From a virus: a stretch of DNA of 21,522 nt. The position numbers and the translations under genes are program-made. Location of the stretch: positions 1 through 21,522 of IMG/VR virus record IMGVR_UViG_3300012001_000037; one strand, given 5' to 3'. The first letter of the stretch is position 1; the number at the start of each line of letters is the position of its first letter. The notes below the pieces were generated by a model. The model made no database searches. It was not told where the DNA came from and saw only the letters and a list, made by a program, of their open reading frames with translations. Positions 1-16,816 of this stretch are shown here, in pieces.

Positions 1-84
1 ACCATTATGCCACCCGGCCATTGGGTGAAACAGTGTCAAAGACACAGAGGCCGGGAAGGGAATCGAACCCTTATTTCAAAGCTA
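1..84 (-). tRNA. Putative circularly permuted tRNA, 5' half running off the window
   Basis: Read on the minus strand, a 3' tRNA half comes first: T-stem 72-68, T-loop TTCGATT 67-61, T-stem 60-56, 3' acceptor strand CCCGGCC 55-49 and a T at the discriminator position. After a 28-base spacer containing the hairpin GTGTC-TTT-GACAC (45-33), a 5' half begins at 19 with GGCCGGG and a D-arm-like start, then leaves the window. The two acceptor strands pair 7 of 7. The start of the 3' half (near 84) is a guess and the anticodon is not in the window. The alternative is a conventional tRNA starting at 183, which leaves an A-G mismatch in the acceptor and needs a large anticodon-loop insertion. Confidence 0.4.
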
Positions 85-121
85 GGGTGTGTATACGGTC
101 GATCAGTGTAGTATTGAAGCT

Positions 122-150
122 TCTGAATCTAGAGCGATAATCTGAATCTA
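122..150 (-). repeat. Direct repeat TAGATTCAGA x2 in the junction between tRNA halves
   Basis: The 10-mer TAGATTCAGA occurs at 150-141 and 131-122 (minus-strand reading), 19 bases apart. A shorter copy, CAGATTCA, occurs at 239-232 just before the 3' half of the putative permuted tRNA. The copies therefore sit at the presumed outer ends of tRNA halves. They are direct rather than complementary, so they do not form a bulge-helix-bulge by themselves. Confidence 0.8.
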
Positions 151-228
151 AGAGCTTGCCTCTACCATTTGGGCTACCCTGCCATGATTTGGTGGCAGGG
201 AGTGGACTCGAACCACTACTGGAAGCTA
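147..228 (-). tRNA. Putative circularly permuted tRNA (3' half precedes 5' half)
   Basis: On the minus strand a 3' half comes first: anticodon 3' stem AGCTT (227-223), 5-base variable loop, T-arm 217-201 with loop TTCGAGT, acceptor CCCTGCC (200-194), A73 at 193 and an encoded CCA (192-190). Six bases later the 5' half starts: acceptor GGCAGGG (183-177), TA, a D-arm (174-158) and anticodon 5' stem AAGCT (157-153). Acceptor strands pair 7 of 7 and anticodon stems 5 of 5. Joining 183-147 to 228-193 gives 73 nt, a normal tRNA length. No conventional 5' half lies upstream of the 3' half. The junction, and so the anticodon, is uncertain; a join after position 37 would give a loop CTTAGAT (anticodon UAG). 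Confidence 0.5.
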
Positions 229-291
229 TTTTGAATCTGAGTCGTCAGTTTCAGTTTGTTAGGTGCGCCCCATCCGGGACTGACCACCGTA

Positions 292-320: not shown

Positions 321-1058
321 CTACGCTGAGAACAGGAAGTCGAAAACTTGTTTGCCGGTCTTGACGTCGGTGACGGCGGCGGAGTTTGCATCCTCACGGG
401 CAAACTTCACTGCGGTCAGCAGGTCTTCGACGCGGGTCAGGAGGGCGTTACGGCGTTCGCGCTGCAGGGCACCGGAGAACTTGGTGGTGCTCCATGTACC
501 GACGATGACATCTTCGTTGAAGATCTCGACCTGTGCCGGGTGCTTGTCCGTGGCGGGGGACTTCTCCCAGTTGCGCGGGACCTTCTTGGTCTTGACCGTC
601 TGCGAGACTGCAGTGGCCCAGTCACCGGTTGCCGCGCTCTTCTCCCAGAGTTCAGCGGGATCCAGTGTCGGCAGGGCTGCGACGAAGGTCTTCAGGTCCA
701 CGAGCTGCTTCTCAAGGAAGAGAAGGTACGTGACCGGGGCGTCCTTGACAACGGTAGTCCCGTTGACGACGACATCAGCCTTGGCTGAGCCATTGGCCGT
801 CTCCTTGGTCAGGGTGACATCGAAGAGCCGGATGAGGGAATCGGAGACCTCAGTGAGGACATCCTCGACACGGGTCTGTACAAGGGTGCTCTCAGCAGGA
901 AGCTGGTCGCCCTCTTCATCCTTGGGCTTGTACGTCCGGGAGATGCCGTTGAGCAGCTGGGTCTTCTGGATCTTGTGGTAAGCGTCGGTAACGTCGCGCT
1001 TGGAGGTATTCTTCAGTCCGCCTTCAATGGCGATGATCTGGTTGAGCTTGGTGGTCAT
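321..1058 (-). CDS. DUF7873-like conserved protein, function unknown
   Basis: A 245-residue soluble protein with no signal peptide or membrane segment. Its opening (MTTKLNQIIAIEGGLK) and later stretches (VTYLLFLEKQLVDLKTF near residues 129-145, HPAQVEIFNEDVIVGTWST near 172-190, and LLTAVKFAREDAN near 213-225) match what I recall of DUF7873, a family seen in Streptomyces and their phages with no assigned activity. The ATG at 1058 has an AAGGA Shine-Dalgarno six bases upstream. The leader also carries the 10-mer GACTAACGAC, shared with the rtcB leader. The gene lies between tRNA-Lys(CTT) with its 58-residue ORF and the unusual tRNA-like genes at the window edge. The family assignment is from memory. 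Confidence 0.75.
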   Translation of the reverse strand: MTTKLNQIIAIEGGLKNTSKRDVTDAYHKIQKTQLLNGISRTYKPKDEEGDQLPAESTLVQTRVEDVLTEVSDSLIRLFDVTLTKETANGSAKADVVVNGTTVVKDAPVTYLLFLEKQLVDLKTFVAALPTLDPAELWEKSAATGDWATAVSQTVKTKKVPRNWEKSPATDKHPAQVEIFNEDVIVGTWSTTKFSGALQRERRNALLTRVEDLLTAVKFAREDANSAAVTDVKTGKQVFDFLFSA

Positions 1059-3394: not shown

Positions 3395-3399
3395 TCACG

Positions 3400-3483
3400 C
3401 GGAGACGGAGAGAATTGAACTCTCTGGAGTGTTACCTCGTACTTCCTTAGCAGGGAAGCTCCTAACCAAATCGGGTCGTCTCC
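3400..3483 (-). tRNA. tRNA-Ser(GCT)
   Basis: A class II tRNA. Acceptor GGAGACG/CGTCTCC is perfect with discriminator G73, typical of Ser. The anticodon arm is CTTCC-CTGCTAA-GGAAG (GCT), a long variable arm follows, and the T-arm GAGAG-TTCAATT-CTCTC keeps the usual U54/A58, unlike the three other Ser tRNAs here. Confidence 0.95.
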
Positions 3484-3487
3484 AATA

Positions 3488-3652
3488 CTAGCGGTTACGT
3501 GCTGTGTGCTTTGTAACCGTTGCGTTGATCCAGAGAAGTGCTTCCTCCAGTTTTGTGATGGCCAGCTGCTTCTCGCGTCCATCCGGGATGTTATCCTGTA
3601 CGGTCTCAATGGTGGCGAGAATCGACTTCTCGGCTTTTTCGTGTTGTGTCAT
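3488..3652 (-). CDS. Acb2/Tad1-domain small protein (anti-CBASS/anti-Thoeris type)
   Basis: A 54-residue protein, MTQHEKAEKS to TARNR, with the conserved hairpin motif IPDGREKQLAITKLEEALLW (residues 22-41) followed by INATV. This matches what I know of the Acb2/Tad1 hairpin domain (DUF7681). Characterised members bind cyclic nucleotides or cyclic ADP-ribose signals and so blunt CBASS or Thoeris immunity. It is shorter than most members and is essentially only the helical hairpin. There is no Shine-Dalgarno: a TATAAT box ends six bases before the ATG, predicting a leaderless message. A 20-base inverted repeat flanks the start. It sits between rtcB and tRNA-Ser(GCT). Family confidence is good; the ligand is unknown. 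Confidence 0.82.
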   Translation of the reverse strand: MTQHEKAEKSILATIETVQDNIPDGREKQLAITKLEEALLWINATVTKHTARNR

Positions 3653-3684
3653 ATTTCTATTATACACGAGAAAGCCGAGAAGTC
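3624..3684. repeat. 20-base inverted repeat around the acb2-like start
   Basis: Arms 3624-3643 and 3665-3684 are reverse complements with one mismatch in 20, separated by 21 bases that hold the TATAAT box and the ATG. The left arm encodes residues 4-10 of the Acb2-like protein and the right arm covers the promoter spacer. RNA reading through from rtcB would fold into a long hairpin, while RNA started at the local promoter would lack the 5' arm. Confidence 0.85.
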
Positions 3685-3688: not shown

Positions 3689-4882
3689 CTAGCCCTTGAC
3701 GCAGAGGATGGTCTGGAGGTGCTGGACAACCTCTACAAGATCCTTCTGGGCATCAAGGACACTATGGATGTCTTTGTACGCGCCCGGAATTTCGTCCACA
3801 ACGCCCTGATCCTTGCGGCACTCGACACCAAGTGTTTGTGCTGCGAGGTCCTCCACCGTGAAGGTGGCCTTGGCCTTGTTTCGGCTCATGCGCCGACCAG
3901 CACCATGGGAGGCTGACTGGAAGGATGCATCGTTGCCGAGGCCGCGCACGATGTAGGACCCGGTACCCATCGATCCGGGGATCAGACCGAGGTCGCCGGA
4001 ACCGGCCCGGATAGCACCCTTACGGGTGACCAGCATGGGACGGCCATCGATCATCTCTTCGGCCACGTAGTTATGGTGACAGGAGATTTCCTGATCGAAG
4101 GTGAGGGCGTTGGTCGGGAAGGAGTCCTTGATGACGCCCTTGAAGAGTTCCATCATGACCTTGCGGGACCGGAGCGCGAACTCCTGTGCCCATGAGAGGT
4201 CAAACCGGTAAGCCGCCATCTCCGGGGTGTTAGCAAGGAACACGGCGAGGTCGGGATCGGCAAGGTCCTGATTCTGCGGGAGCGCCTTCGCGATCTTGAT
4301 GTGCCGTTCGGCCAGTTCCTTGCCGATATTGCGTGAGCCCGAGTGCAGGGTGAGCCAGACACGGCCTTCAGCGTCGAGACACATCTCAAGGAAGTGGTTC
4401 CCACCGCCAAGAGTACCCATCTGGTGCTGTGCACGGCTCTCCAACTGCTGCACACCGGCATGCAGGTCACGGAAGCTGCCCCAGAAGGTGTCCCAACCAC
4501 GGTCGATGCCGAGACGACGGACGTTCGGCATCTTGTCATGCCCATTGAAGCCTACAGGGATGGTGTCTTCGACCCGAAGGCGGATCGAGTGCAGGTCCTC
4601 AGGCAGGTCTGCTGCCGTGAGGGAGGTACGGACGGCAGAGACGCCACAGCCGATGTCAACGCCGACGGCTGACGGCGAGATGGCGTTCTCCATGGCAATG
4701 ACGGAACCGACCGTGGCACCCTTGCCGAGGTGTACGTCAGGCATTACGCGCACACCATGGACCCACTGTAGGGAGGCGATGTTGCGGAGCTGCTGCAGTG
4801 CGGCAGGCTCAACTTCGTGCTCGTGAGCCCACATCAATGTGGAGTGCTTGGCACCGCGAAGTGCGATGGGGAAATCAGTCAT
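3689..4882 (-). CDS. rtcB: RtcB-type RNA ligase
   Basis: A 397-residue protein of the RtcB family, which uses GTP and metal to join RNA ends carrying a 2',3'-cyclic phosphate or 3'-phosphate to a 5'-OH. All hallmark motifs are present: MPDVHLGKG (48-55), VDIGCG with D76 and C79, GGGNHF with N162/H163, LHSGSRN with H180, SCHHN (267-271), GSMGTGSY (303-310) and SHGAGRRMSR with H326, the expected guanylylated His. Length matches the bacterial form and no intein is seen. The ATG has an AAAGGA Shine-Dalgarno. Lying inside a tRNA array, it could repair tRNAs cut by host anticodon nucleases or join the unusual tRNA halves at the left edge; both roles are inferences. Confidence 0.97.
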   Translation of the reverse strand: MTDFPIALRGAKHSTLMWAHEHEVEPAALQQLRNIASLQWVHGVRVMPDVHLGKGATVGSVIAMENAISPSAVGVDIGCGVSAVRTSLTAADLPEDLHSIRLRVEDTIPVGFNGHDKMPNVRRLGIDRGWDTFWGSFRDLHAGVQQLESRAQHQMGTLGGGNHFLEMCLDAEGRVWLTLHSGSRNIGKELAERHIKIAKALPQNQDLADPDLAVFLANTPEMAAYRFDLSWAQEFALRSRKVMMELFKGVIKDSFPTNALTFDQEISCHHNYVAEEMIDGRPMLVTRKGAIRAGSGDLGLIPGSMGTGSYIVRGLGNDASFQSASHGAGRRMSRNKAKATFTVEDLAAQTLGVECRKDQGVVDEIPGAYKDIHSVLDAQKDLVEVVQHLQTILCVKG

Positions 4883-5020: not shown

Positions 5021-5097
5021 TGCCCCCAGAGAGATTCGAACTCCCATGTGTCCAGTTAACCTTTCAACTAGTTCGTAGCCAGAGGGTATATGGAGGC
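5021..5097 (-). pseudogene. Degenerate tRNA-like gene, possibly Phe-derived
   Basis: Acceptor GCCTCCA pairs with TGGGGGC and the T-arm GGGAG-TTCGAAT-CTCTC is good with A73, but the rest is poor. The D-arm has no clear stem. The anticodon region folds as CTAGTT/AACTGG with loop GAAAGGTT, which puts the usual U33 in the stem and leaves GAA at the loop edge. A normal tRNA-Phe(GAA) exists at 7545-7617. It may be a decaying copy, a processing signal or a decoy. The gap from 4906 to 5020 holds nothing else I can support. Confidence 0.45.
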
Positions 5098-5116
5098 ATA
5101 ATCTATTCTAACATAC

Positions 5117-5689
5117 TTACTTTTTCTTCCCCCTACAGAAGGTGTCCGTTTGGCTGTGACAATTCGGGCAAACAATACGCAAATTTTCAATCCGATTGTT
5201 GAGTGTGTCACCGTCCACATGGTCTAGTTGGAGAGTCAAAGGTTTCCCCTGCCATTCCGGACCAGACCCACAGCAGACACATTCATTGGCTACCCCAAGG
5301 TTGCTGACCATTAGACGCTTTAATGACTCATTACTTCGTTTCTTACCATAGGTGAATACTTCATCAATAGTCTGCTGAACTCTTTTTACACCCACCTTAT
5401 TAAAAACAGGCAGGTTAATGTCACACTCTATCGAGAATTTTCGAGCAATTTTGTAACTAGCATTAGACGGATTCTTACCCATCCCAACCAAAACTTGGTG
5501 CAGAGAATCACTAGAAGAGCAGAGGTGCCTAAAAAGCTCTATATCCCAGAATTCCTTGGGACGGATCGTGTTAAGACTGTATTTCTTTAGCCAATATCGT
5601 ACTGTCGATTGTGTCACAGATGACAGCGAGGCGATGCCGCGCTGGGTGTGCCCAGCATCGATTAGCGATTGGAGGTAGTCTCGCTGCAA
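5117..5689 (-). CDS. HNH homing endonuclease with N-terminal helix-turn-helix
   Basis: A 190-residue free-standing HNH endonuclease. The N-terminus (about 11-37, AGHTQRGIASLSSVTQSTVR) resembles a DNA-binding helix-turn-helix. The C-terminal nuclease has C137/C140, the catalytic LDHVDGD motif with H157, N165, IENLRIVCPNCH (168-178) and a basic tail. These nick or cut DNA at specific sites to copy themselves into alleles that lack them. The start is a TTG at 5689, chosen because an AAGGA Shine-Dalgarno lies eight bases upstream and no ATG fits. It interrupts the tRNA array between tRNA-Ile(TAT) and the degenerate tRNA ahead of rtcB. Confidence 0.93.
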   Translation of the reverse strand: MQRDYLQSLIDAGHTQRGIASLSSVTQSTVRYWLKKYSLNTIRPKEFWDIELFRHLCSSSDSLHQVLVGMGKNPSNASYKIARKFSIECDINLPVFNKVGVKRVQQTIDEVFTYGKKRSNESLKRLMVSNLGVANECVCCGSGPEWQGKPLTLQLDHVDGDTLNNRIENLRIVCPNCHSQTDTFCRGKKK

Positions 5690-5948: not shown

Positions 5949-6065
5949 AGAGCTTCCATGTTGACGATTTGTCCGGGCGTCAACGTCTCCGGTCTGGCCT
6001 TCTCCTACCCGCAAGTAATACCAGCACTTTGATGATCACCCGTGGCTGTGGGTGTCGGGATTTCG

Positions 6066-6134
6066 TAGACGGTCAGGGTATCGATCCCTGCGGAAAATCC
6101 GTGTAAAGGATTTGTACGTCCCAGCGCCCCGTCC
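6066..6134 (-). tRNA. Atypical tRNA-Val(TAC) with shortened D-region
   Basis: The anticodon arm AATCC-TTTACAC-GGATT (TAC) is perfect, followed by a 5-base variable loop and T-arm CAGGG-ATCGATA-CCCTG, with A instead of U at 54. The 3' acceptor ACCGTCT pairs with GGACGGG through G1-U72 plus five further pairs, with G7-A66 mismatched. Only about 15 bases separate acceptor and anticodon stem, so the D-arm is reduced. It may be a functional minimal tRNA or a decaying one. A near-consensus promoter ends about ten bases upstream. Confidence 0.5.
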
Positions 6135-6144
6135 ATATGTTTAA

Positions 6145-6172
6145 AGTATACACCAGAATTAGTTGGTGTCAA
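6145..6172 (-). promoter_or_regulatory. Strong promoter before tRNA-Val(TAC)
   Basis: TTGACA (6172-6167, 6/6), a 16-base spacer and TATACT (6150-6145, 5/6). Transcription would begin a few bases before the tRNA-Val 5' end. The promoter lies within a dyad: 6144-6149 and 6172-6177, plus ACACCA/TGGTGT, are complementary. Confidence 0.75.
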
Positions 6173-6180
6173 TACTTCGT

Positions 6181-6226
6181 GACTACCTTCTCGTAATCAA
6201 AGGGGCTTGATTACGTAAAGGTAGTC
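6181..6226 (-). other. Long stable hairpin between tRNA-Ser(CGA) and the tRNA-Val promoter
   Basis: GACTACCTT pairs with AAGGTAGTC and, after a small internal loop, CGTAATCAA pairs with TTGATTACG around a 6-base loop. That is eighteen base pairs in 46 bases with no T-run, so it may be an RNase III-type processing site, a terminator of unusual type or a structured small RNA. Confidence 0.6.
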
Positions 6227-6228
6227 AG

Positions 6229-6312
6229 CGGAAAGCAGAGGGCACGATCCCCACTCCTTACAGAGCGTCCAGTTTTCGAGGCTGGTCCTATCACCTGACA
6301 GGTTTACTTTCC
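6229..6312 (-). tRNA. tRNA-Ser(CGA) with non-canonical T-loop
   Basis: A class II tRNA. Acceptor GGAAAGT/GCTTTCC with G73, D-stem CCT/AGG, anticodon arm CCAGC-CTCGAAA-ACTGG (CGA), then a long variable arm. The T-arm TGGGG-ATCGTGC-CCTCT has A54 and U58 in place of the near-universal U54 and A58. Confidence 0.8.
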
Positions 6313-6379
6313 AAGAATGCCTGAACTCCCGTCACACGCTGTGTTTCGAGCGCTTTCCGGTTCCTTCCCAGACATCCAG

Positions 6380-6463
6380 CGGATAGCAGAGAGACCGAGT
6401 CCCATAGCTTGCACTACCACACGCTTTCCAAGCGTGGCCCGCCACCCGACGGGTTTACTATCC
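6380..6463 (-). tRNA. tRNA-Ser(GGA) with non-canonical T-loop
   Basis: A class II tRNA. Acceptor GGATAGT/GCTATCC with G73, D-stem CCCG/CGGG, perfect anticodon arm CACGC-TTGGAAA-GCGTG (GGA), then a long variable arm. The T-arm TGGGA-CTCGGTC-TCTCT has C54 and G58 and an A53-U61 pair. Confidence 0.82.
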
Positions 6464-6477
6464 ATGTAGTTCTTCGC

Positions 6478-6491
6478 CACAGTGCACTGTG
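6478..6491. repeat. Perfect 14-base palindrome CACAGTGCACTGTG
   Basis: This perfect dyad lies in the spacer between tRNA-Ser(TGA) and tRNA-Ser(GGA), next to a second stem, GTCGG/CCGAC (about 6509-6525). It could be a protein operator or an RNA hairpin. Confidence 0.6.
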
Positions 6492-6533
6492 ACAGGTTAC
6501 AACCCTAGTCGGCTAAGAATCCCGACCAACACG

Positions 6534-6618
6534 CGGAGAGCAGAGAACATGATTCCCACAGTATTACCTGCCAACGGGGTTCAAAGCCGCGCCGGTTCGC
6601 CTGCCCGGTTTACTCTCC
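6534..6618 (-). tRNA. tRNA-Ser(TGA) with non-canonical T-loop
   Basis: A class II tRNA. Acceptor GGAGAGT/GCTCTCC with G73 and D-stem CCGG/CCGG. The anticodon arm is GCGGC-TTTGAAC-CCCGT (TGA) by alignment with the two sister Ser tRNAs, with a weak top pair. A long variable arm follows. The T-arm TGGGA-ATCATGT-TCTCT has A54 and U58. Confidence 0.75.
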
Positions 6619-8208: not shown

Positions 8209-9841
<1,633 letters not shown>

Positions 9842-15112: not shown

Positions 15113-16099
15113 CTATTCATCATTACCATCTTCCGGCAGGTACCGGGCATTCGGATCGACTTGTTCATAGAAGTCTTCGATGTAATCTTCAGCGTAAGAG
15201 CCGTCATCAATCATCGGACAAACTGTGAAGAATGGGCACTTACTGCAGCCCCAATCCATGCGAGGTCGAGGATACGCTACGAATAGCGGATCAGCCCCAT
15301 TGTCAAGTGCGTCTCTAAGTTCCATTATACCATGTACAGTTCCTTGAGTCCTTGTCCAAAACGAGTTCAAGGTCTTTTTGTTAAACCGCACATCAATACG
15401 CTCGTAAAACGGAGGCTTGGCTGCGGCAGTACGCTTCACCTTTTTCAGGAGATTGTATATACCACCGTCAACAGGTGTACTGTCCTCGTCGGGATTCAAG
15501 GTTTCCAGCATGGTGTAGTGCATGAGCTGCTCAGACATGTGGCTGAACTCATAATAGGGGTTGAAAGTCACCGCTGACTTGTGATCAAGCGTTGCCCGTG
15601 AGCCGTCTGACCGCCTACGGACCTGCAAGTCCACCTTGCCGATCAGTTCAACACGGCCACGGGCAATCTCGGGCAGTCGGTAGGAGAGCTTCTTTTCTGC
15701 CGCAACCACTTCAAGTTCGGAGTCACGGTTCTCCTCATTCTGCCACTCTACGTAGCCTTCCATCATGATCCGGCCAAGTTCAGCTTCGCTATTGAACTTC
15801 TTGATTTCACCCACATCAGTGGCCTTGTCGGACTGCAGGAAGCGCTGGTCATCTAGACGTTGGAGCTTGCCGTATGCGGTCATCGGGTGTTCTCCGGTGA
15901 CGTAGTACTGCTCCAGTGCGTCGTGGATCCGGGTGCCCAGCTTCAGCGGGCCGGTGTATTCCTTTTCCTTCTTGGCAAGTCCACGGTAAGTGCCCAGCCA
16001 CCACTTGCGGCGGCAGTCCTTGTACGTCTGGATCTCCGAGTTGGAGATCGAGACTGATTCCGGGAAACGACCCAGAATCGGCTCTCTCAGGTCAGTCAT
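15113..16099 (-). CDS. Cas4/RecB-like PD-(D/E)XK exonuclease with Fe-S cysteines
   Basis: A 328-residue nuclease of the RecB/Cas4 superfamily. Motifs in order: C29 in KDCRRKWW, H59 in GTRIHDALEQYY, D157 in LIGKVDLQV, D172-x-K174 in ATLDHKSA, QLMHY (191-195), then C285, C288 and C294 in GCSKCPFFTVC, which with C29 would bind a 4Fe-4S cluster. Phage members resect DNA ends for recombination and replication. No cas1/cas2 genes are near, so it is a phage recombination enzyme rather than a CRISPR adaptation gene. The ATG has AAGGA five bases upstream, 13 bases after the thyX stop. Confidence 0.92.
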   Translation of the reverse strand: MTDLREPILGRFPESVSISNSEIQTYKDCRRKWWLGTYRGLAKKEKEYTGPLKLGTRIHDALEQYYVTGEHPMTAYGKLQRLDDQRFLQSDKATDVGEIKKFNSEAELGRIMMEGYVEWQNEENRDSELEVVAAEKKLSYRLPEIARGRVELIGKVDLQVRRRSDGSRATLDHKSAVTFNPYYEFSHMSEQLMHYTMLETLNPDEDSTPVDGGIYNLLKKVKRTAAAKPPFYERIDVRFNKKTLNSFWTRTQGTVHGIMELRDALDNGADPLFVAYPRPRMDWGCSKCPFFTVCPMIDDGSYAEDYIEDFYEQVDPNARYLPEDGNDE

Positions 16100-16111
16100 T
16101 TTATCCTTGTC

Positions 16112-16816
16112 TTAGACGGCTCGGTAGCCATTGGCAACAAACAGGTCCCATACAAATGGAAGCTTTTCCTGTACATATTTACCGATCTCTAGTGCCACCA
16201 ACTCGATCTCATAGGTCGGACTGGACGGATCGACGGCGTCAGTACCCCAATCCACCCGCAGGGATAGGAAGTTGGTGAGCGACCTGAGGTTGGCCGTGTA
16301 GTACAGGCTGGAGAAGAGTCCGACGGGCAGGACATTCCGTGCAACTTCGCGGGCGATACCGGACTCCAGCATGGTGGTGTAGCAGCTGTATGCGATGGTG
16401 TATGCTGCTTCATGACAGGCCAGCATGACATCCCGCTGTGCATCGGTACCTGCAACGAAGTTGTACGCGCCGACCTTGCCGACCTGAACCAGTGCACGCT
16501 CCGCACTTGGGATATAGAAGAGCGGTTCCATCTGCTTGTAGCGCCCGGACTCCTCGTTGAAGCTGCTGATCCGGTGACGAAGCATTTCCCGGGTCACGAA
16601 GATCGGGGCCTGCACATAGAACGTGAACACCACGTGCTCAAACGGGCTGGCGTGGCGGTTGTTGTATAGGTAGCGGACCAGACCCTCATCCGCATCGGAA
16701 TCCAGCGAAGCTGAGCCCGTAGTAGAGACCCGTGCGGCCTGTACGATCCGTCCCAGATCGCCCATCGAATCGATAAGTTGGATAGTGACGTCAGATTTAG
16801 TGACGATTTCAGTCAT
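16112..16816 (-). CDS. thyX: Flavin-dependent thymidylate synthase ThyX
   Basis: A 234-residue enzyme that makes dTMP from dUMP using FAD, NADPH and methylene-tetrahydrofolate. The ThyX signature RHRISSFNEES (80-90) is exact, preceded by the FEHVVFTFYVQAPIFVTREML block, and FSSLYYTANLRSL with later LRVDWGTDA supplies dUMP/FAD-binding residues. The start is the ATG at 16816, which gives MTEIVTKSDVTI and has a GAGGAAA Shine-Dalgarno; a longer frame to 16861 lacks support. It overlaps the helicase stop by eight bases. Confidence 0.98.
   Translation of the reverse strand: MTEIVTKSDVTIQLIDSMGDLGRIVQAARVSTTGSASLDSDADEGLVRYLYNNRHASPFEHVVFTFYVQAPIFVTREMLRHRISSFNEESGRYKQMEPLFYIPSAERALVQVGKVGAYNFVAGTDAQRDVMLACHEAAYTIAYSCYTTMLESGIAREVARNVLPVGLFSSLYYTANLRSLTNFLSLRVDWGTDAVDPSSPTYEIELVALEIGKYVQEKLPFVWDLFVANGYRAV

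Follow-up and report, generated by a model that had tools for sequence, protein, structure and literature searches.

An RtcB ligase gene within a tRNA array

The window analyzed here, 21,522 bases long, is the entire IMG/VR record and is therefore most likely a phage fragment. It contains 19 tRNAs (ARAGORN, default settings), all on the minus strand, which is also the strand of rtcB, a gene for an RNA ligase. The features at the rtcB site are:

3399 to 3483, minus strand: tRNA-Ser(GCU), on one flank of rtcB (ARAGORN)
3689 to 4882, minus strand: rtcB, RtcB-type RNA ligase of 397 amino acids (PF01139, PHROG 1075, structure alignment, motifs)
5021 to 5097, minus strand: degenerate tRNA-Arg(ACG), on the other flank of rtcB (Rfam tRNA model, 24.4 bits; alignment to contig L007)

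Judged from its sequence, the 3689-4882 open reading frame encodes a complete RtcB ligase, with a predicted ligation activity. It matched the Pfam RtcB family (PF01139) at 401 bits (E 1e-119; cut-off 27 bits) over profile positions 1-426 of 426, and PHROG 1075, "tRNA splicing ligase," at 437 bits. With phmmer, the protein aligned to RtcB chains of known structure, PH1602 among them, and its motif blocks lined up with these chains: DIGCG at residue 76, GNHFLE at 161, LHSGSR at 179, CHHNY at 268, SHGAGR at 325, and a C-terminal KG. The cysteine, histidine, asparagine, and glutamate residues of these motifs presumably serve in metal binding, guanylate binding, and catalysis. The initial annotation had credited the protein with all RtcB catalytic motifs, and the presence of every motif block in a full-length family match agrees with this. 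RtcB is the tRNA-splicing ligase of archaea and animals, and the established chemistry of the family is the joining of 2',3'-cyclic phosphate to 5'-OH ends.

Related contigs differ in the occupancy of this site. In a near relative (L007), which encodes a 97% identical RtcB, the gene likewise lies between tRNA-Arg(ACG) and tRNA-Ser(GCU). The tRNA-Arg of L007 is intact, and the window copy matches it over the 3' third only. An HNH endonuclease gene adjoins the degenerate tRNA-Arg (window 5021-5689, minus strand). Two further relatives, L010 and L011, have kept the tRNA array, and RtcB was not found when both contigs were searched; the gap at the corresponding site is about 138 nt (Arg to Leu) in L010 and 86 nt (Arg to Ser) in L011. 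Because the site is empty in the nearest relatives without rtcB, the gene behaves as mobile or optional cargo.

Just 3' of rtcB lies a long inverted repeat (window 3624-3684) that overlaps the start of a small open reading frame and a TATAAT-like box; it surfaced through spurious Rfam miRNA matches on both strands. Three more tRNA candidates (Val, Ser, and one called Gln) appeared at 6065-6618 on the minus strand, at a relaxed ARAGORN threshold only. A NUMOD3 homing-endonuclease-like gene (9152-9841, minus strand) lies directly upstream of a ribonucleotide reductase gene (8233-9177).

The window RtcB is one more member of a known phage gene family, and a relative was found in 649 of 50,697 phage records (tblastn). 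The closest named proteins, at 57-61% identity, belong to the Microbacterium phages Cece, Zooman, Big4, and Pumpernickel, the Rhodococcus phage Weasels2, and two Stenotrophomonas phages, with 57-60% for the top Microbacterium and Rhodococcus matches; apart from the window itself, a close copy of the gene (97%) was seen in one metagenome contig only. The rtcB gene of Cece, Zooman, and Pumpernickel lies inside a large tRNA array, with a gene for a Ro-like RNA-binding protein about 7 kb downstream (TROVE confirmed), and phages of Rhodococcus cluster CB and Mycobacterium cluster K also carry this RtcB family in or near tRNA clusters. The window differs from these tRNA-rich phages in the placement of rtcB between tRNA-Arg and tRNA-Ser and in having a DUF7873 module nearby, not a Ro-like gene. 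No tRNAs were found within 8 kb of rtcB in Rasputia, another phage with RtcB, or near the RtcB loci L004, L006, and L008.

Passages of PMC8527509 and PMC13313380 read phage RtcB together with tRNAs, in Mycobacterium and Rhodococcus phages, as protection from host tRNA cleavage, and section 3.4.9 of PMC7824862 describes jumbo-phage RtcB and ATP-grasp ligases as ligating cleaved tRNAs. The idea of tRNA repair is therefore already in print. These published readings, along with the rtcB genes in the tRNA arrays of the three Microbacterium phages, fit the first of two roles that had been proposed for the window gene, the repair of tRNAs cut by host defense.

Permuted tRNA-like elements beside a DUF7873 gene

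At one end of the window, two RNA elements follow a gene of the DUF7873 family. The element calls draw on R1, a covariance model of element B:

1 to 109, minus strand: element B, cut by the contig end (R1, 62.5 bits; full copy in L009; covariation alignment A3)
115 to 260, minus strand: element A (sequence, detector script, covariation alignment A4; R1, 37.9 bits at 143-218)
321 to 1058, minus strand: DUF7873 gene, 245 amino acids, followed by the tRNA-mimic elements (PF25283, 344 bits)

Element A consists of a leader, the T-arm (217-201), the acceptor 3' strand (200-194), a loop (193-184, ACCAAATCAT), the acceptor 5' strand (183-177), the D-arm (about 176-158), and a trailer. Element B begins with one strand each of an outer helix, of helix P2, and of helix P1, and continues with the T-arm (72-56), the acceptor 3' strand (55-49), a loop (48-20), the acceptor 5' strand (19-13), and the start of the D-arm. 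Both elements therefore have the order T-arm, acceptor 3' strand, short loop, covarying acceptor 5' strand, D-arm. The acceptor strands form 7 of 7 pairs in this permuted order in the window, and the changes in relatives are compensatory: CCCTGCC/GGCAGGG in the window and L009, CCCTCCG/CGGAGGG in L010, and TCTCCGC/GCGGAGG in L011. The initial annotation had described rtcB as lying among unusual tRNA halves. The permuted halves are real and rtcB does lie in a tRNA array, but the halves (1-260) sit about 3.4 kb from the gene.

A linear tRNA with a 62-nt insert was also called in this region, at 47-183 on the minus strand, by the Rfam tRNA model (29.7 bits, cut-off 29) and by ARAGORN in intron mode. 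This call takes its 5' strand from element A and its 3' strand from element B, which gives 6 of 7 acceptor pairs. We reject it as an artefact: in relatives the covariation follows the permuted order, and the supposed insert is the A-B spacer. False linear-tRNA calls across A-B junctions could mislead annotation elsewhere.

Distribution of the module

Elements of this kind accompany DUF7873 genes in both phages and bacteria. The detector script placed permuted units 3' of the DUF7873 gene in almost every locus fetched, and eight named phages, with hosts ranging from Arthrobacter to Klebsiella, each had one or more; the hosts of phages with the module include Gordonia, Arthrobacter, Rhizobium, Vibrio, and Klebsiella. 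R1 was trained on 19 loci and then scanned over 49 other phage loci with DUF7873, with L015, L027, L049, L050, L057, L059, L066, and L076 left out; in 47 of the 49, element B scored at least 40 bits next to the gene. The two misses were L055 (25.3 bits) and L083 (30.2 bits). We note that scanned locus L078 is, judged by the sequence there, one virus with training locus L023, which shares element-region sequence with the complete Gordonia phage GodonK. Background scores at loci without DUF7873 reached 35.5 bits (L005) and 32.6 bits (L003), and the core of the model alone scored 37.9-44.1 bits in Zooman and Cece. The 40-bit line is therefore not clean by itself, and position beside DUF7873 serves as a second criterion.

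In bacteria, R1 found element B about 200 nt after the gene in all 80 DUF7873 loci scanned (72.5-118 bits), these being the best 80 of 537 matches. The loci in this set are mostly from Streptomyces, with others from Actinomadura, Nocardia, Rhodococcus, Armatimonadetes, Ktedonobacterales, and further groups. In a literature search on permuted tRNA in phages or on DUF7873, none of the titles and abstracts listed concerned the DUF7873/A/B module. DUF7873 and the tRNA-mimic RNAs form an overlooked, widespread module of phages and bacteria.

The AlphaFold model of the DUF7873 protein has a pLDDT of 89.6, and Foldseek gave no match to its fold at E ≤0.001 in PDB or BFVD. VIA fold rows reached Z 7.0 (TolC, rmsd 13.5, 156 aligned), a size typical of common arrangements, and were set aside.

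RNA structure and the split-tRNA readings

Covariation extends well beyond the tRNA-like part of element B. When run on 19 A+B regions, RNAalifold predicted 47 pairs, of which 39 show double changes; element B alone (alignment A3) gave 31 pairs in five helices, 28 with double changes. Within the element B helices 95.0% of cells are paired, compared with 41-47% in slid controls, and none of 500 shuffles reached any of five measures. The order of parts in a complete element B is outer helix, conserved GATCGACC, P2, P1, T-arm, closed acceptor stem, D-arm, P1', P2', conserved CTTAAACG, and outer helix, with a long P2 and a wide internal loop visible in alignment A3. Leader and trailer thus pair in long covarying helices, not in a 5-bp anticodon stem with a loop of 7 nt. 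For element A, RNAalifold gave no helices outside the tRNA-like part (alignment A4), and the T-arm, acceptor, and D-arm alone are secure.

P1 is not in the RNAalifold consensus and was taken from unit-by-unit scripts. Compared with partner-shuffled strands, phage P1 averaged 4.6 versus 3.4 bp in element A (n=34), a modest difference, and 5.2 versus 3.6 bp in element B (n=41), a better separation, with row B_L011 left out as out of register. The bacterial values, from the best 80 of 537 loci less 17 that gave one unit only, were 5.0 versus 4.4 bp for A and 6.1 versus 4.7 bp for B (n=63 each).

Circularly permuted tRNA genes occur in red algae and archaea, and elements A and B are like them in that the 3' half comes before the 5' half and the acceptor strands are complementary. 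The bulge-helix-bulge of permuted tRNA genes was not apparent on inspection of A and B. A joined tRNA has an anticodon stem of 5 bp and a loop of 7 nt with U33. The second role proposed in the initial annotation, the joining of permuted halves, would make A and B permuted tRNA genes of a phage split-tRNA system, cut by some endonuclease and joined by the phage RtcB. Consistent with this are the permuted order with its full acceptor pairing, the known place of RtcB in archaeal and animal tRNA splicing, and the NCCA that starts the acceptor loop in some bacterial elements (17 A and 8 B elements out of 63 each, from the best 80 of 537). The best point for a split tRNA is the YTNNNR-like strand that follows the stem in many phage B elements, where the triplets are without constant identity.

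Several results nevertheless argue against such a system. Among bacterial B elements from the best 80 of 537 loci, 36 of 63 have a P1 of 7 bp, and of the 54 whose P1 is at least 5 bp long, only 28 carry a T at position 33; this does not fit the anticodon arm expected after joining. Covariation in P2 and the outer helix also reaches past the tRNA-like part. The tRNA-splicing endonuclease (PF01974) was found in 0 of 36 phage records, with a control search positive in four archaea. Finally, the elements persist without rtcB: RtcB is absent from 33 of 34 phage contigs with DUF7873, so that the permuted halves, which had been expected to track rtcB among relatives, are not tied to it. RtcB splicing of permuted tRNAs is unsupported by these results, and we consider a split-tRNA system of this kind extremely unlikely.

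Maturation could instead depend on the host, with A and B as permuted tRNAs processed by some host nuclease and host RtcB and the phage gene not needed. Of the module-bearing bacterial genomes searched (38 of the best 80 of 537), 37 indeed encode RtcB elsewhere. The same structural points, namely P1 length, T33, and the covarying P2 and outer helix, speak against host-matured tRNAs as well, as does the lack of a constant anticodon, and conservation beyond the tRNA-like part, as in the motif between P2' and the outer helix, is unexpected of sequence that is spliced out. We regard this reading, too, as very unlikely.

The architecture of A and B is instead of a known kind, that of Y RNAs. Element B shares with the Y RNA YrlA an outer helix, an inner helix, a T-arm, a loop-closed acceptor stem, a D-arm, and the returning strands of the inner and outer helices; by its predicted fold it follows the YrlA plan of a permuted tRNA-like domain closed at the acceptor, with end helices. 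Scores against the YrlA model (RF02553) were 23.0 bits for window A, 36.9 for L020 B, 23.8 for L020 A, and 37.6 for L084 B, all below the Rfam cut-off of 69, and the A/B RNA is absent from Rfam 15 at cut-off. A and B differ from YrlA also in their conserved end motifs and in the neighboring gene, DUF7873 rather than Ro60. They stand two in tandem, an arrangement that the Salmonella operon name rsr-yrlBA-rtcBA implies there as well. Because the RNA ends leave on the anticodon-stem side and the acceptor is closed by a short loop, A and B probably fold as tRNA mimics without cutting or joining. The apparent "tRNA halves" are most likely tRNA-shaped RNAs, not split tRNAs.

In Cece, just upstream of the Ro-like gene (L085, about 15800-16200), we observed repeated stretches of the form GAGCCGAAG...GGTTATC. 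The last of them holds a permuted tRNA-like domain and scored 24.8 bits against YrlA. These repeats are likely phage Y RNAs.

Relationship of the module to RtcB, other ligases, and Ro60

Genomic linkage does not uphold RtcB as a partner of the module. Of the 34 phage contigs that carry DUF7873, one encodes RtcB; among the bacterial DUF7873 loci (best 80 of 537), none of the 80 does so within fetched flanks of up to about 5 kb. Since nearly all searched bacterial genomes with the module encode RtcB elsewhere, there may be a functional link or a ligase acting in trans. T4-type ligases were found in 14 of 36 module records (PF09414 in 12, PF09511 in 6), and 21 of the 36, L023 among them, were without RtcB, PF09414, and PF09511, some of the 36 records being fragments; the permuted elements thus persist in relatives in which no such ligase was found. 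We note that the co-occurrence counts of DUF7873 with A/B, RtcB, ligases, and Ro60 are uncorrected for relatedness.

Ro60 fared no better as a general phage partner of the module, as TROVE matched 3 of 36 phage records, weakly and partially, and was not found in the contig of the near relative. In bacteria, TROVE and DUF7873 occur together in 21 of 38 genomes (38 of the best 80 of 537), which does not uphold DUF7873 as a simple replacement for Ro60.

These counts bear on whether RtcB, DUF7873, and A/B form a joint RNA-repair island like Salmonella rsr-yrlBA-rtcBA, with DUF7873 in the place of Ro60. The part of PMC7790460 that treats this operon groups Ro60, Y RNAs, and RtcB, and the window resembles it in having RtcB near two tRNA-mimicking RNAs. 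Also in keeping with an island are the co-location of rtcB and a Ro-like gene in the tRNA regions of Cece, Zooman, and Pumpernickel, the permuted tRNA-like RNA that adjoins the Ro-like gene in Cece, and the T4-type ligases in module records. However, the window is unlike the Salmonella operon in that RtcB is not regularly linked to the module, and RtcA (PF01137) was found in none of 11 records, two of which are the window and its near relative, both fragments. With RtcB beside the module in a single phage contig and Ro60 and DUF7873 often together in bacteria, we consider a joint island of this kind unlikely. RtcB and the module may still work together in this phage, but linkage gives no sign of it.

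Interpretation

The reading we favor, with a probability of roughly 0.7, is that rtcB is an optional tRNA-repair cargo of a large tRNA-rich phage and that A, B, and DUF7873 are a separate tRNA-mimic module. The RtcB of the window most likely repairs cut tRNAs. Host defense nucleases would cut anticodon loops, leaving 2',3'-cyclic phosphate and 5'-OH ends, and RtcB would reseal the cut phage or host tRNAs, which would keep the tRNA pool usable during infection. Our analysis identified no anticodon nuclease or phage counter-defense partner for this role. RtcB would not be needed to make the permuted tRNA-like elements, and the DUF7873 gene with its two RNAs would stand as a module apart from it. 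These RNAs would fold as tRNA mimics, much as YrlA-type Y RNAs do.

A tRNA-mimic RNA with ends on the anticodon side, combined with a constant neighboring gene, suggests an RNA-protein particle like that of Ro60 and Y RNA. For YrlA, a passage of PMC7790460 proposes the tRNA-like domain as a possible inhibitor of an anticodon nuclease, and a passage of PMC8394870 describes the RNA as tethering Rsr and binding PNPase. As a tentative proposal, DUF7873 and A/B may be a widespread, undescribed ribonucleoprotein of bacteria and phages, in which a protein other than Ro60 holds two tandem tRNA mimics, by putative binding, and takes part in the cleavage, decay, or repair of tRNA. Phages would carry this particle in their tRNA arrays and, in this lineage, beside RtcB, as an RNA-repair island.

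What appeared to be split tRNAs are most likely conserved tRNA-mimic RNAs, tied to one uncharacterized protein family across bacteria and phages. This raises the questions of whether there is a second class of tRNA-mimic ribonucleoproteins beside Ro60/Y RNA, and why phages keep the module among their tRNA genes.
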